A stretch of 64,000 nucleotides of DNA, taken from the NCBI GenBank assembly GCA_020073185.1, contig JAIQFT010000001.1, positions 1 to 64,000 of the forward strand. Reading direction: 5' to 3'. The notes beneath the pieces were generated by a model, which saw only the letters and a program-made list of their open reading frames with translations, had not been told where the DNA came from and made no database searches. Below, piece after piece: positions 3,614 to 54,281 of this stretch (within the stretch, counting starts at the first letter, position 1; each line of letters opens with the position of its first letter). Made by a program: the position numbers and the translations under genes. This DNA comes from Terriglobia bacterium (GTDB taxonomy: Bacteria > Acidobacteriota > Terriglobia > Terriglobales > Acidobacteriaceae).

Positions 3614-5645
3614 TCTTGAACGCTTTCTGAATGTCCTTCACAGAATACCGCAACACCACCGGCCTTCCGTGAGGGCACGACATCGGACATTCGGTTTTGG
3701 CCAGTTCGCGCAGCAGCCACTCCATCTTCTCCGTCGTCAGCGGGGTATTGACCTTGATGGCGGCGTGGCACGCGATAGACGCAGCGATTCGGGTGCGCGC
3801 GATCTCCAGGTTCAGCGCCTGCTCCTCACGCTCGAACTGCGTCAGCAACTCGTGCAGCATGCGCTCCACGTCGCTGGCGTCCACCCCGGCGGGCGCGGTC
3901 TTCACCGCAATGGTGCGCGAGCCGAAAGGCTCCGCGTCGAAGCCGTTGTGCCGCAGCTCATCGCAGATTTCCGCGAAGATCGCCTGCTGCTGCGGCGACA
4001 ACTCAATGATCAGAGGCATCAACAATCGCTGCGACTCCACCCGCTCCGCCGCGCGCTGCCGCAGCACTTTCTCGAACAGCACGCGCTCGTGCGCCACGTG
4101 CTGATCCACAATCCACAGCCCCTCTTCGTTCACCGCCAGAATGAACGACTCGCGCACCTGGCCCAGCGGCTTCAGCGATTCGAAGGGCGGCGCATCGCTT
4201 GGCGGCGGCTCGGAAATCTCGCGCGAACATCCCCCATCCGGCACCACGGCCCGCGATCCGAAACGCGCCACCGGCACGGCCGCATTCGCCTCGACATCGA
4301 GCGAACCCCGAAACTCCAGGCGCTGCGAAACCGGCGGCAGCGCCGGGGCGCTCAGCGCAAAATCCGCGTCCGCCTGCGTGATCGCGAGATCGTCGGGGTA
4401 GGGACGTGCGGATGCCGTAGCCGCCGGTGTCAACCCCGGCGACGCCGTCGGCTGCGCCGTAATTTCCCGCGTGAATTGCGGCACCGGGCGCGCCTTCATC
4501 AGCGCCGCCCGCACCGAGTCGCGCACAAAGTCGTGCACTACCGACTGCTGCCGGAACCGCACCTCCACCTTCGACGGGTGCACGTTCACGTCCAACTCGC
4601 CGCTCGGCATCTCCAGAAACAACAGCACCACCGGGTACACCGTCGGCGGCAAAATATTGCGATACGACTCCGTCAGCGCGTGCTGCACCACCTTGTCGCG
4701 GATCAGGCGTCCGTTGACGAACACGAACATCGAGTTCCGGTTCAGCTTCTGGATTTCCGGCTTGGACGCAAACCCGTGCAGCCGCAGCTCACCCGGCGTG
4801 GCGCGGGCGCCCTCGCCCGCGTCATCTTCTTCCTTGCGCGCCCACGGCGGTGGCTGCGGAAGTCCCACCCGCGCCAGCGGCAGCATCGCCGCCAGCGGCA
4901 GCAGTTGGTCGAGCGTCTCGCGCCCGAACACCTGGTAAATCCGTTCCTGGTGCGACGCCACCGGCGCCGCGATCAGCATCGCGTTCACCGACGAGTGCAG
5001 CTCGAAATGCTTGTCCGGATGCGCCAGCGCGTAGTGCGTTACCAGCGACGCGATCTGCGCCAGTTCGGTGGATTCCGCGCGCAGGAACTTCCGCCGCGCC
5101 GGCACGTTGAAGAACAGATCGCGCACCGTAATCGACGTCCCCGCCGGCAGTCCAGCTTCCTCCACCTTCAGGATTTTTCCCCCGGCGATCTCGATCACCG
5201 TGCCCGTTGGTGCCATCGATCGTGCCGTTGGTGCTGTGGGTGCTGTCGGTGTCCCATATCTGCCCGGTTTTGGCAGATGTGGGTCTGCGCGACTCTCCGC
5301 CGCACAGGTTTCCAGCCGTAATCTTGAAACCGACGCGATCGACGGCAGTGCCTCGCCCCTGAACCCCAGCGTCGCCACCGTCAGCAGGTCATCGGCAGTC
5401 CGGATCTTCGATGTGGCGTGCCGCTCAAATGCCAGCAGGGCATCGTCGCGCACCATCCCGCAGCCGTCGTCGGTAACCTGGATCAGCTTCTTGCCGCCAC
5501 CCTCCACTTGCACCCGAATGCGCTGCGCGCCCGCGTCCAGCGCGTTTTCCAGCAACTCCTTCACCACCGACGCCGGACGCTCCACTACCTCGCCGGCGGC
5601 GATCTTGTTGGCAACGTGTTCCGGGAGAACGTGAATGCGGCCCAT
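3606..5645 (-). CDS. mutL: DNA mismatch repair protein MutL with in-frame palindrome insert
   Basis: MutL couples mismatch recognition by MutS to strand removal. The 679-residue protein has the GHKL ATPase motifs ELLENALDAGA (31-41), DDGCGM (59-64) and TLGFRGEAL (92-100), and a C-terminal dimerisation domain. The sequence DQHVAHERVLFE from residue 514 fits the DQHA-x2-E-x4-E endonuclease motif, and CPHGRP is present near the end, so this should be a nicking MutL as in bacteria without MutH. Between CAAES and the conserved TVIEIAGGKI strand lies an extra segment (about residues 117-146). Residues 121-131 of it are encoded by a 31-base palindrome repeated elsewhere in the window. The reading frame stays open through it. 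Confidence 0.96.
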   Translation of the reverse strand: MGRIHVLPEHVANKIAAGEVVERPASVVKELLENALDAGAQRIRVQVEGGGKKLIQVTDDGCGMVRDDALLAFERHATSKIRTADDLLTVATLGFRGEALPSIASVSRLRLETCAAESRADPHLPKPGRYGTPTAPTAPTARSMAPTGTVIEIAGGKILKVEEAGLPAGTSITVRDLFFNVPARRKFLRAESTELAQIASLVTHYALAHPDKHFELHSSVNAMLIAAPVASHQERIYQVFGRETLDQLLPLAAMLPLARVGLPQPPPWARKEEDDAGEGARATPGELRLHGFASKPEIQKLNRNSMFVFVNGRLIRDKVVQHALTESYRNILPPTVYPVVLLFLEMPSGELDVNVHPSKVEVRFRQQSVVHDFVRDSVRAALMKARPVPQFTREITAQPTASPGLTPAATASARPYPDDLAITQADADFALSAPALPPVSQRLEFRGSLDVEANAAVPVARFGSRAVVPDGGCSREISEPPPSDAPPFESLKPLGQVRESFILAVNEEGLWIVDQHVAHERVLFEKVLRQRAAERVESQRLLMPLIIELSPQQQAIFAEICDELRHNGFDAEPFGSRTIAVKTAPAGVDASDVERMLHELLTQFEREEQALNLEIARTRIAASIACHAAIKVNTPLTTEKMEWLLRELAKTECPMSCPHGRPVVLRYSVKDIQKAFKRI
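5253..5283. repeat. 31-bp palindrome (CCCACATCTGCC family) inside mutL
   Basis: The plus strand reads CCCATATCTGCC, a 7-base loop CGGTTTT, then GGCAGATGTGGG: a 12-bp stem with one mismatch. The same element is perfect at 54251-54281 and slightly degenerate at 51412-51441, in both cases between genes. Here it is translated in frame as part of MutL. Confidence 0.9.
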
Positions 5646-28749: not shown

Positions 28750-29448
28750 CTAGCTTGCCCTCCGCACCGTCCGCTTCTCGATCAACTTCTCGTACGACGG
28801 CCCCTGGATGATGCGCTGTACGTAGATGCCTGGCGTGTGTACCTGGTCGGGATTCAATTCTCCTACCGGAACTAACTGCTCGACTTCGGCGATGGTGACT
28901 TTGGCCGCGGCAGCCATTTCCGGATTGAAGTTGCGCGCCGTTTTGCGGTAGACGAGGTTGCCGTGCGCGTCGCCCTTCCATGCCTTTACCAGCGCGAAGT
29001 CGGCGCGCAGCGCGGTTTCCAGCAGGTAACGCTGGCCGTCAAAGTCACGGGGTTCCTTGCCCTGTTCTACGACCGTGCCAACCCCGGTAGGAGTGTAAAA
29101 CGCGGCGATGCCCGCCCCTGCCGAGCGTATGCGCTCGATGAAGGTGCCCTGCGGGATGACCTCCAGCTCGATTTCGCCGCGCGCCAGCAGCTCCTGGAGA
29201 AGCTGGTTGTCGCCCATGAACGTGCCGATATGTTTGCGGATCTGACCATTGCGCAGCAGCAGTCCGACGCCGAATCCCTGCACTCCGACGTTGTTGCTGA
29301 TGGTGGTGAGTTTGCGCGCGCCCCGGCGCACCAGCGCGGCGATCAGATTTTCGGGAATGCCGCACAGGCCGAAGCCGCCCATCATCACGCTGCAACCGTC
29401 GGCGATGTTGGCGACGGCCTGGTCGGCGCTGGCAAAAACTTTATTCAC
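28750..29448 (-). CDS. scoA: 3-oxoacid (succinyl-CoA:acetoacetate type) CoA-transferase subunit A
   Basis: A 232-residue protein matching the alpha half of class I CoA-transferases: GGFGLCGIPENLIAAL, ISNNVGVQGFGVGLLL, and GAGIAAFYTPTGVGT. The alpha subunit binds CoA; the catalytic glutamate is on the beta subunit, which is not next to this gene or anywhere in the window. The ATG overlaps the stop of the upstream aminotransferase gene (ATGA), so they form an operon. Substrate uncertain. Confidence 0.85.
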   Translation of the reverse strand: MNKVFASADQAVANIADGCSVMMGGFGLCGIPENLIAALVRRGARKLTTISNNVGVQGFGVGLLLRNGQIRKHIGTFMGDNQLLQELLARGEIELEVIPQGTFIERIRSAGAGIAAFYTPTGVGTVVEQGKEPRDFDGQRYLLETALRADFALVKAWKGDAHGNLVYRKTARNFNPEMAAAAKVTIAEVEQLVPVGELNPDQVHTPGIYVQRIIQGPSYEKLIEKRTVRRAS

Positions 29449-30860
29449 GACGCCTGGACCTCATAGATAGCGCGGCGCAATTCGGCGATGCCGTCGCGGA
29501 TTTCATCGGGCGATGCGACCGCCGGCGGCGCCAACAGCAAGTGGTCGCCGCGCGTGCCGTCCACGCACCCCTGCATAGGGTAAACCAGCACCCCGCGCCG
29601 CTGGGCGGCTTCGAAAACGCGCGCCGAGAACACGGATTCCGGATCGTAGGGCGTCTTGCTCTGCCGGTCGGCGACAAATTCCACGCCCCACAGCAGCCCC
29701 AGCCCGCGCACGTCGCCGACGCAGTCGCAATCGCGCAGCGTCTGAAGGGCCGCGGCGAATTCCGATGCCAGCGAGCCGGGGGCGTTGCTATCGGCAGCCT
29801 CGACGAGCCGAAGTTCCCGGACTCGGTTCAGCACCGCGCGTCCTGCCGCGACCGAGACGGGATGCGCGTTGTAGGTAAGCCCGTGAATGAAAGCGCCGGA
29901 ACCGGCGGCGATTGCCTCGACCACGCGGCGCGAAGCAATGACCGCGCCCAGCGGCGCATATCCCGCCGCAAGCCCCTTGCCGGCGACGACGATGTCCGGC
30001 GCGGTTGCCGCGGTTGCCCCACCCTTATCGGTCGCCGGCCTTGCGACCGATAGGGTGGGGACATTGTCCCAATGCTCCCACGCAAGATTCCGCCCGGTGC
30101 GTCCGCATCCGGTCATGACCTCGTCGGCGATCCAAAGCAGGCCGTGAGCATTGCAGATGCGCCGGATTTCCTGCAAGTAGCCGCCCGGCGGGACGGCTGC
30201 GCCCAGTGTCGCGCCCGAAATAGGCTCACAAATAAACGCCGCCGCCGTGCCACCAGATTCGCTGATGGCGATTTCCAATTCGCGGGCGTACTCCGCCGCG
30301 CAATTGTTGCAGCCGTAGGCGCAGCGATAGCAATACGGCGTGTTGATGTGGCTGAACTCGCGCAGCATCGGGAGGTACGGCTTGCGCCGGCGCAAATTCC
30401 CCGATACCGCCATCGCCCCCAGCGTCGCGCCGTGGTAGCTCTGCTGGCGGCTGATGACCTGGTAGCGTTCGTCGTGGCCGCTCTCGACCTGGAATTGCCG
30501 TGCCAGCTTGAGTGCGGTTTCCACGGCCTCGCTGCCGCCGCTGGTGAAGTACACCGCGCCGCCGCCGAATTCCGCGCCGGCAAATTCCAGCAGTTCGCGC
30601 GCGAAATCTTCCGCGATCGGGGTGACGAACTGGCTGGTGTGCGCGAACTCGATAGCGGCGACTTGGGCCGCCATGGCGCGCGCGATCGCGGGGTCGCCGT
30701 GTCCGAGAAAGGAAACAGCGGCGCTGCCGGCAAGATCGAGATACTTCTTGCCGTGCTCGTCGAAGATCCACGCTCCTTCTCCGCGCACCGCGCGCGGATA
30801 CTGCTTGCGGAAGGAGCGCGGGAATGCCGCCGGCCAGGACGCGTGCGCAGGGAAGTGCAT
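29445..30860 (-). CDS. class III PLP aminotransferase with in-frame palindrome insert
   Basis: A 471-residue omega-type aminotransferase. Landmarks: SGGSEAVETALKLAR (108-122), SYHGATLGAMAVSG, a Cys-rich CYRCAYGCNNC (177-187), IADEVMTGCGRTG and the PLP lysine in VVAGKGLAAGY (K295). Between WEHWD and PDIVVAGKG, where family members usually have only one to three residues, lie 22 extra residues (266-287), encoded mainly by a 44-base palindrome. The frame is kept. Coupled to scoA by a 4-base overlap, suggesting beta-amino acid, GABA or 3-aminobutyryl-CoA breakdown; this is inference. Confidence 0.85.
   Translation of the reverse strand: MHFPAHASWPAAFPRSFRKQYPRAVRGEGAWIFDEHGKKYLDLAGSAAVSFLGHGDPAIARAMAAQVAAIEFAHTSQFVTPIAEDFARELLEFAGAEFGGGAVYFTSGGSEAVETALKLARQFQVESGHDERYQVISRQQSYHGATLGAMAVSGNLRRRKPYLPMLREFSHINTPYCYRCAYGCNNCAAEYARELEIAISESGGTAAAFICEPISGATLGAAVPPGGYLQEIRRICNAHGLLWIADEVMTGCGRTGRNLAWEHWDNVPTLSVARPATDKGGATAATAPDIVVAGKGLAAGYAPLGAVIASRRVVEAIAAGSGAFIHGLTYNAHPVSVAAGRAVLNRVRELRLVEAADSNAPGSLASEFAAALQTLRDCDCVGDVRGLGLLWGVEFVADRQSKTPYDPESVFSARVFEAAQRRGVLVYPMQGCVDGTRGDHLLLAPPAVASPDEIRDGIAELRRAIYEVQAS
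30017..30060. repeat. 44-bp palindrome inside aminotransferase gene
   Basis: CCCCACCCTTATCGGTCGC (30017-30035) pairs with GCGACCGATAGGGTGGGG (30043-30060), an 18-bp stem with one bulged T. It is translated in frame and accounts for most of the extra 22 residues of the enzyme. Confidence 0.88.
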
Positions 30861-40575: not shown

Positions 40576-42677
40576 GCGGTCGCCTCCATCGAGCGCCCTT
40601 TCCCGTCGCCGGGGACTGCCGCCGGAGCCACGCGCGTACCGGAAAACTTGCGCATGGCTTCGTTGACGTTCAGGATCAACACCACCGTGCCGTCGCCCAG
40701 AATGGAAGCGCCGCTGACCAGCTCGCTGGCGACAATGGTTTCATCGAGCGGCTTAATGACCAGTTCCTCCTCGCCGACCAGCTTGTCCACCAGCAGCCCA
40801 AACTTGCGTTCCCCGCTGCTGATCACCATCACGAACACGCGCCCATCGCGGCTGTCGAACACCGCGGGCGCCAGCCGATGCAGGCGCACCAGCGTGAGTA
40901 CCTCGTTGCGCACTTGCACAACTTCGTGGCCGTCCACGTGATGGATGTCGGCCTCACTGGCCCGCGTGATCTCCAGCACCGACTCCAAGGGCATGGCGTA
41001 CAGCCGCTCGCTGACCCGGAACAACAGGGCGCGGATGATGGCCAGCGTGAGCGGAAGCCGCAACTGGAATGTCGTTCCCCGGCCGGGCTGCGTCTCCATC
41101 CGCACGCTCCCTTTCAGCTTGTGCGCCACCGACCTGACGATGTCCAGGCCCATGCCGCGCCCGGAGATTTCGCTGACCTGCTCGGCGGTGCTGAACCCGG
41201 GTTCGAAGATCAGGCCCATGACATCGGCCTCGCTCATACGCGACGCCTGCTCCTGGGGCAACATCCCGTGCCCCACCGCCTTGGCGAGAACGGCGGCGCT
41301 GTCAATGCCGCGGCCGTCGTCGCTGATCTCGATCACCACCTCGTTTCCCTGGTGGCAGGCGTGCAGTCGGATCACGCCCTGCTCCGGCTTGCCGGCGGCG
41401 CGGCGCTCGGCCGGTGTCTCGATTCCGTGGTCCACCGCATTGCGCACCAGGTGAATCATCGGCTCGGCCAGCGCGTCCAGCAGGGTTTTGTCCAGATCGG
41501 TGTCCTGCCCGCTGACGCTCAGCGCAGCGTCCTTGCCGCCCAGCTTGGCCAGATCCCGCACCAGCCGCGAGAACCGCCGGAACAACTGGTCAACCGGCAC
41601 CATGCGGATTTTCATCGCCGAGCGTTGCAGCGCATTCAGTACCTGCGACTGGAACGCCATCGCGTCGGCAAGTTTGGCGCGCAGCGGGTCCTTGGGGAAG
41701 CGCTGCACGAATTCGTTCAGCGTCTGGTGCAGCATGGATTTGCCGATCACTAACTCGCCGACCAGGTTCAGCAGGTTGTCGATGCGCTCCGCATCCACGC
41801 GCAGCGTGTTCTCCCCGTTTGTGGCAACGCGATTCGCGATCGCGTCGGGCACATCTGCTGTGCTCTGCGTCGCGGCAGGTAAGCCCACCGTGGAGGGCGC
41901 GGTCGCGGTTGTTGCCGCGACTGCGTCCTCTTCGGTGAGTTCCAGCGCTGGGACAAACTTTTCAATTACGACCTGCGCCACCACGCCCGGAATGCGGCAC
42001 TTCTGCGCCAGCCACCCCCGGTCGTGTTCGCTGGCCAGGGCAAACTCCACCTGGCTGGCTTGCGCCCACTCCGGTGCGGCCGGCGAGACGGCGAGCACGG
42101 TTCCTGCTTTCTGCAGAACCTTTTTCAGCAGCTCGATGCCGGCTGCGCGCATGGGCAGGTCGGGCGTGAGCGCGGCGCCGATTTCGTACACGTGCAGCCC
42201 GCGTCCCGCCGCTTCCCCCATGGCCAGTTGCTCGTACTCCGTCCACGAAAACCTTGGTTTGAATTCGCTGACGGCCTTGCACGCGGCCGCCTTCTGCGCC
42301 CGCTTCCATATCAGCGCGCGCAGCGGGTCTCCGCTCGGCGGATCGAGATGGGCGCGATAGGCGGCGCACATGGCGTCGAACATGTCGGCGGCGCTGAGCA
42401 CGATTTCCGGCAGCGACGCCGCATTGGCCGCCGTGATTTCCGGCGTCAGCGCGTCTTCCAGTTCATGCGCCAATTTGCTCAGCTCGTGCATGCCGCACGC
42501 CGCCGAGTCGCCTTTCAGGGTATGCACGACGCGGCGGATCTCCTGCACCGCCGCGGCGTGTCCCGGATTTTTTTCTAGTGCCAGCCCCTGGTCGTTGAGC
42601 GCCTGCAACAGTTCCTGCGCGCTCTGGAAGAACATATCCCGCAGCTCCGATGCCCGTTCGTCTGGTTGCGTGCTCAC
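40572..42677 (-). CDS. cheA: chemotaxis histidine kinase CheA
   Basis: A 701-residue kinase. The Hpt domain holds H52 in VHTLKGDSAACGM. Residues 140-260 may be the P2-like region; dimerisation (LLNLVGELVIGKSMLHQ) begins near 300. The HATPase domain (HLVRNAVDHGIETP, DDGRGID, GRGMGLDIV) and a CheW-like domain at the C-terminus follow. It has no C-terminal receiver, unlike many delta-proteobacterial CheA proteins. Overlaps cheR and cheB by four bases each. Confidence 0.95.
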   Translation of the reverse strand: MSTQPDERASELRDMFFQSAQELLQALNDQGLALEKNPGHAAAVQEIRRVVHTLKGDSAACGMHELSKLAHELEDALTPEITAANAASLPEIVLSAADMFDAMCAAYRAHLDPPSGDPLRALIWKRAQKAAACKAVSEFKPRFSWTEYEQLAMGEAAGRGLHVYEIGAALTPDLPMRAAGIELLKKVLQKAGTVLAVSPAAPEWAQASQVEFALASEHDRGWLAQKCRIPGVVAQVVIEKFVPALELTEEDAVAATTATAPSTVGLPAATQSTADVPDAIANRVATNGENTLRVDAERIDNLLNLVGELVIGKSMLHQTLNEFVQRFPKDPLRAKLADAMAFQSQVLNALQRSAMKIRMVPVDQLFRRFSRLVRDLAKLGGKDAALSVSGQDTDLDKTLLDALAEPMIHLVRNAVDHGIETPAERRAAGKPEQGVIRLHACHQGNEVVIEISDDGRGIDSAAVLAKAVGHGMLPQEQASRMSEADVMGLIFEPGFSTAEQVSEISGRGMGLDIVRSVAHKLKGSVRMETQPGRGTTFQLRLPLTLAIIRALLFRVSERLYAMPLESVLEITRASEADIHHVDGHEVVQVRNEVLTLVRLHRLAPAVFDSRDGRVFVMVISSGERKFGLLVDKLVGEEELVIKPLDETIVASELVSGASILGDGTVVLILNVNEAMRKFSGTRVAPAAVPGDGKGRSMEATA

Positions 42678-51411: not shown

Positions 51412-51441
51412 CCCACATCTGCCCGGTTTTGGCAAATGTGG
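51412..51441. repeat. CCCACATCTGCC palindrome between convergent genes
   Basis: CCCACATCTGCC, loop CGGTTTT, GGCAAATGTGG: the mutL palindrome with one arm change. It follows the NtrC-type gene by 50 bases and precedes the end of the convergent gene, so it could serve as a two-way terminator. Confidence 0.8.
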
Positions 51442-51450
51442 CCGAGGGCG

Positions 51451-54250: not shown

Positions 54251-54281
54251 CCCACATCTGCCCGGTTTTGGCAGATGTGGG
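54251..54281. repeat. perfect CCCACATCTGCC palindrome between convergent genes
   Basis: CCCACATCTGCC, loop CGGTTTT, GGCAGATGTGGG, a perfect 12-bp stem. It sits 45 bases after the secreted-protein gene and 55 before the end of the convergent gene, a terminator-like place. Confidence 0.85.

Follow-up and report, generated by a model that had tools for sequence, protein, structure and literature searches.

How does a palindrome come to lie in the reading frame of an otherwise ordinary enzyme gene, and why is it put up with there? The question is raised by a class III (PLP) aminotransferase gene (29445..30860, minus strand; assigned by its ORF, homology and an AF2 model with PDB matches) in the window, i.e. 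the whole stretch of 64,000 nucleotides that was analysed.

The hairpin in the aminotransferase gene

A sequence-only reading had described a near-perfect hairpin at 30017-30060 of this gene, and both its position and its pairing were right. The hairpin core (30018..30059, minus strand) is CCCACCCTATCGGTCGC-AAGGCCG-GCGACCGATaAGGGTGGG; its arms, 17-18 nt long, pair with a single A bulged out and enclose a 7-nt loop. It measures 42 nt, or 44 nt counting flanking bases, and scores 49.1 bits against the covariance model R1 described below. Folding of 71 nt around it gave -40 kcal/mol (z = -4.5), and 0 of 200 shuffled sequences were equally stable. The hairpin is in frame on the coding strand and, as had been said, the frame is intact; the ORF is open through 471 aa.

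The 22 residues noticed between WEHWD and PDIVVAGKG are N266-A287 (codons 30000..30065, minus strand, from translation and homologue alignment), and the hairpin provides about 20 of them. About 40 class III homologues, including that of the congener G002 (81% identical), have only two residues at this site, EHW-(Q/G)-VA-PDI, so that the peptide was not found conserved without the hairpin. The aminotransferase of the congener G001 (89% identical) carries the hairpin in an 18-aa version. The net gain is thus 20 aa in this genome (G000) and 18 aa in G001; the difference of 6 nt (2 aa) is due to a short tandem duplication of GCAACCGCG at the 3' junction (two copies, 30000..30017, minus strand), seen in the sequence and by comparison with G001.

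The PLP lysine K295 (codon 29976..29978, minus strand) is invariant in our alignment (A2) and is indeed the eighth residue past the insert. The insert is therefore close to the active site in sequence, as had been proposed, but in the AF2 model (30 sequences, pTM 0.83) it falls in a loop that follows helix 260-264 and precedes strand 290-293 and is predicted to be disordered, with pLDDT below 50 for residues 267-284. Outside the insert the model matches class III transaminases in the PDB. Going by this prediction, the insert would form a disordered surface loop without benefit to the enzyme.

A family of repeats and its insertions into genes

When the exact arm of the aminotransferase hairpin was searched genome-wide, only this single site and no second copy was found. 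Yet the palindrome is repeated. The open-ended pattern CCCACCC-N10-40-GGGTGGG matched 34 genome sites, some of the short ones by chance, against 1 for the reversed control, and the covariance model R1, made from 22 copies, detected about 52 copies in the genome at a threshold of >34 bits. Together with the alignment, this copy number bears out the view of a repeated palindrome inserted in frame and missing from homologues.

Across the 52 copies, conservation of the flanks ends sharply at -7/-8 and +6 and is weak at +8; therefore the unit is GGAAnATC-hairpin-GCAACC. At the aminotransferase site the 5' end (30060..30067, minus strand) has decayed from the family consensus GGAAnATC, and the 3' tail (30012..30017, minus strand) is GCAACC, conserved to about 85-94% per position across the family. 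Units are typically 54 nt (30 of 52) or 78 nt (10 of 52) long, and in 42 of the 52 copies the length is divisible by three. Of the copies, 36% have no stop codon in any of the six frames; for genome windows matched in size the figure is 11%. Among the congener matches listed, 56 were in G001 and 39 in G002. Of the G002 genome, about 1.2 Mb was read in stretches. The family was not found at E<=1e-4 in the congener G003 or in 37 genomes beyond the genus; the genomes are drafts, mostly metagenome-assembled.

About 22 copies (at least 22 in one tally) lie inside recognisable genes, and about 40% of all copies are intragenic. An insertion was counted as internal only if a profile or structure matched on both sides of the site or across it. 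The hosts are the aminotransferase, DNA ligase, PrmC, hydantoinase A, a DUF1800 protein, RecG, a GcvT-like protein, an ABC binding protein, homoaconitase, protoporphyrinogen oxidase, an M28 peptidase, YdiJ-like and LMF1-like proteins, CopA (two adjacent copies), GltX, MutY, a tricorn-like protease, PolI, GT9, MazG and an RluB-type synthase. Profile support is poorest for the ABC binding protein, but G001 and G002 conserve the sequence on both sides of its insert. Genes with the hairpin at the N-terminal end (heme O synthase, DeoC, ZupT, a DsbD-like protein, a cytidylyltransferase and a molybdenum hydroxylase) were left out because the true start codon may be downstream of the hairpin.

The intragenic copies use all six frames. 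Compared with solved structures, 61 residues stand in place of 2 in CopA, 36 in place of 0 in GltX and 27 in place of 4 in PrmC; the two adjacent long-form elements of CopA (G000:C99:5693-5837, L102) add about 59 residues vs 3rfu. Net insertion sizes vary from 11 to about 36 aa. This counts against clean-unit insertion, since not every junction can then reproduce the unit exactly. Both empty and filled sites exist among the congeners in the aminotransferase, GcvT-like and homoaconitase genes. Some sites may owe their filling in several species to being hot spots and not to common ancestry. In GltX (C8:81265) and the RluB-type gene (C3:38379), one species has the 78-nt form and another the 54-nt form at the same position, pointing, as far as sequence comparison goes, to hot spots, repeated insertion or internal exchange.

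By one mechanical criterion, 23 of 52 copies in G000 and 11 of 30 in the congeners are well inside good ORFs, vs 62% of random sites, which indicates mild selection against coding insertion. Replication and repair genes account for four of the 22 internal insertions (ligase, RecG, MutY, PolI), to which mutL is added by a sister family; the apparent excess was noted post hoc, with P ~3e-4 to 4e-3 if 1.5-3% of genes are assumed to be of this kind.

A candidate transposase and the sister families

The Pfam profile Y1_Tnp (PF01797) matched at 12 places in G000. Two of the RAYT genes (REP-associated Y1 tyrosine transposase) found there, on contigs C15 and C96, each lie between two inverted hairpins of the family, GGTTGCCCCACCCTTGTC...GACAAGGGTGGGGCAACC. 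Their reading frames (L021, L020) cross their own right-end hairpin and stop just past it, so the C-terminus is the peptide of the repeat. Elsewhere, RAYTs of >=85% identity were found only in G002, where both copies are likewise bounded by inverted hairpins. All four close RAYT copies, in two species, thus lie between twin inverted hairpins, and G003 has neither a close RAYT nor hairpins of the family. By inspection, the RAYT P0002 has the HUH motif HLH in VVMPEHLHLL and a tyrosine in YTHMNPV. RAYTs of 47-64% identity in other genera have their own inverted repeats, several of them starting GGGTGCCCC, which in sequence follow the same plan with different stems.

Because twin inverted copies flank every close RAYT gene copy, mobilisation by the RAYT is the likely source of the hairpin copies. 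What counts against it is G001, where the many copies are accompanied only by 295 bp that match the close RAYT, beside one hairpin, and by more distant RAYTs. By analogy with IS200/IS605 enzymes, the RAYT, as an HUH/Y1 enzyme, would move the hairpin as single-stranded DNA. Insertions into loops, linkers or tails that keep the frame would then survive, presumably because the unit length is usually divisible by three and stops are few in any frame.

We are therefore fairly confident that the hairpin is a non-autonomous single unit of a genus-specific acidobacterial RAYT family, in-frame copies of which are tolerated in genes.

The hairpin in mutL had been thought unrelated to that in the aminotransferase gene. 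This did not hold. The mutL hairpin (5253..5283, minus strand), which lies in frame and was found by the folding scan and a copy search, is CCCACATCTGCCAAAACCGGGCAGATaTGGG, one of 14 copies when up to 3 mismatches are allowed. The window contains three of the 14; the two outside mutL (51412..51442 and 54251..54281, both minus strand, from the copy search) have no convincing spanning ORF. It has its own stem on the common plan CCCA-stem-CCAAAnCCGGG-stem-TGGG, followed by GCACC, where the aminotransferase family has GCAACC. In G001, a hairpin of the mutL family flanks a RAYT that is 58% identical to the RAYT of the aminotransferase family. On these sequence grounds, which include a shared pattern of loop and ends, the two are sister families built on one plan, and each family has a RAYT of its own.

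The further claim that more than one repeat family is tolerated in coding sequence stands: MutY (G000:C24; L105, L276; 381 aa) has two in-frame hairpins, at residues ~244 and ~305, one of each family. Sister families are found inside good ORFs in 1 of 28 cases (genome G009) and in 2 of 14 (mutL family). The rule that divisibility by three explains the tolerance of coding insertions is weakened, since the sister units, which by inspection measure about 45 nt, likewise have a length that is a multiple of three and yet are mostly intergenic.

For the hairpin search a folding scan of the window was used; a scan for perfect long stems gave no matches because the bulge interrupts the stem. The folding scan gave its most stable hairpin at 41881-41940 (-48 kcal/mol); this one has a long perfect stem and belongs to neither family. 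At 2514-2667 there are two 67-nt direct repeats 87 nt apart, GTAGTCCG-rich and with a stable fold.

Selection, and comparison with known repeats

In congener pairs in which both genes have the insert, omega of the flanking codons is 0.13-0.26; the host genes are thus kept under purifying selection. For the insert codons, 18-26 per gene, omega is mostly 0.5-1.7. The exception is GltX (0.23), where a long form was compared with a short form. Judged by these values, the inserted peptides look mostly unconstrained.

Unexpectedly, the DNA of the hairpin differs less between species than synonymous sites in the filled LMF1-like, PrmC, ABC binding protein and aminotransferase genes of G000, G001 and G002. 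In the LMF1-like gene, where two species have a rare 37-nt hairpin variant in common, 2 of 37 positions differ vs a pS of 0.35 (P = 3e-5); the values are 2/40 vs 0.55 in PrmC and 5/42 vs 0.32 in the aminotransferase, all against a synonymous yardstick that is rough owing to saturation and codon bias. This may reflect structural selection, arm-to-arm repair or reinsertion.

The intragenic hairpins could themselves be selected for a role as nucleic acid, as mRNA hairpins or in the gyrase or nucleoid binding proposed for REPs, the peptide being a tolerated by-product. The small differences in the hairpin DNA of the LMF1-like, PrmC and aminotransferase genes speak for this, as does one stem pair of the aminotransferase hairpin that changed on both sides between congeners, from C-G to G-C. 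However, this compensatory pair is a single one, and in MutY a slowdown is not clear (P 0.05). Hairpins would also stay alike if hot spots had recently received independent insertions or if one arm served as template for repair within the hairpin, and the insertions are scattered across unrelated genes, strands and frames. We consider such a role rather unlikely as the explanation. Equally tentative is the wider idea that unit length (54 and 78 nt, ~45 nt in the sisters) and low stop content evolved for intragenic life, with the hairpin and not the peptide kept by selection on nucleic-acid structure; if this were true, the family would represent a kind of REP that dwells in genes, is translated and has a transposase that can be traced.

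That the inserted peptide was recruited for a protein function such as regulation, interaction or solubility is very improbable. Two congeners have the aminotransferase insert in common, and all three those of PrmC and the ABC binding protein, as recruitment would predict; but copies in different frames and on different strands give different peptides, most omega values of the inserts are close to 1, the loop is predicted to be disordered and most homologues have no insert. An ordinary indel or low-complexity expansion with a palindrome by chance, for which one could cite the 3-5 extra residues that homologues L041, L051, L056 and L069 have in the same loop, is already refuted by the z-score, the excess of pattern sites over the control, the conserved element ends and the covariance copies.

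How does a RAYT-mobilised hairpin tolerated in genes compare with known repeats? To our knowledge, no mobiliser has been identified for the in-frame palindromes (RPEs) of Rickettsia, although they were described more than two decades ago. Like them, the present hairpins are short palindromes in frame within many unrelated conserved genes, with ~22 internal insertions by profile matches, where they add an extra segment that is predicted to be translated. An RPE measures ~150 bp and codes for a conserved peptide (PMC10969869). In contrast, as far as the likeness can be drawn from descriptions, the units here are 54 or 78 nt long and use all six frames with no preferred peptide, and copies of the same repeat enclose the gene of a candidate transposase.

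With REPs and REPINs and their RAYTs the family shares a bulged hairpin, a conserved short tail, restriction to a genus and a cognate RAYT between inverted copies; for the Y1 (PF01797) gene this arrangement was found in 4 of 4 cases. Unlike in GTAG REPs, no GTAG tag was found beside the hairpin, whose conserved ends are GGAAnATC and GCAACC (the tail being GGTTG in the matching orientation), and REPs are mostly extragenic. As far as the parts of the paper used here go, Di Nocera et al. 2013 (PMC3733652) describe intragenic REPs in several species, with many repair genes among the hosts and the highest intragenic number of GTAG REPs in Opitutus terrae, and a distinct acidobacterial group of RAYT-like genes flanked by TIRs. 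These TIRYTs/TIRtrons resemble our family in having an acidobacterial RAYT-like gene between inverted self-complementary repeats and a moderately abundant repeat in the same genome. However, in those parts intragenic copies are given for GTAG and CGTC REPs and none are described for TIR repeats, whereas here they make up about 40%. By inspection, the TIRYT motif GGGGWSAS was not matched exactly at the ends of the RAYT locus, GGGGCAAC and GGGGATTT.

What is new with respect to RPEs and TIRYTs is the combination of a RAYT-linked, short, frame-neutral and heavily intragenic repeat with empty sites. RPE-like behaviour is seen here in a free-living soil lineage, together with a candidate transposase whose gene the hairpin itself flanks. 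Through the empty and filled sites of the congeners and the sister families, the entry of the hairpin, its tolerance and its possible role as raw material for proteins become directly testable.
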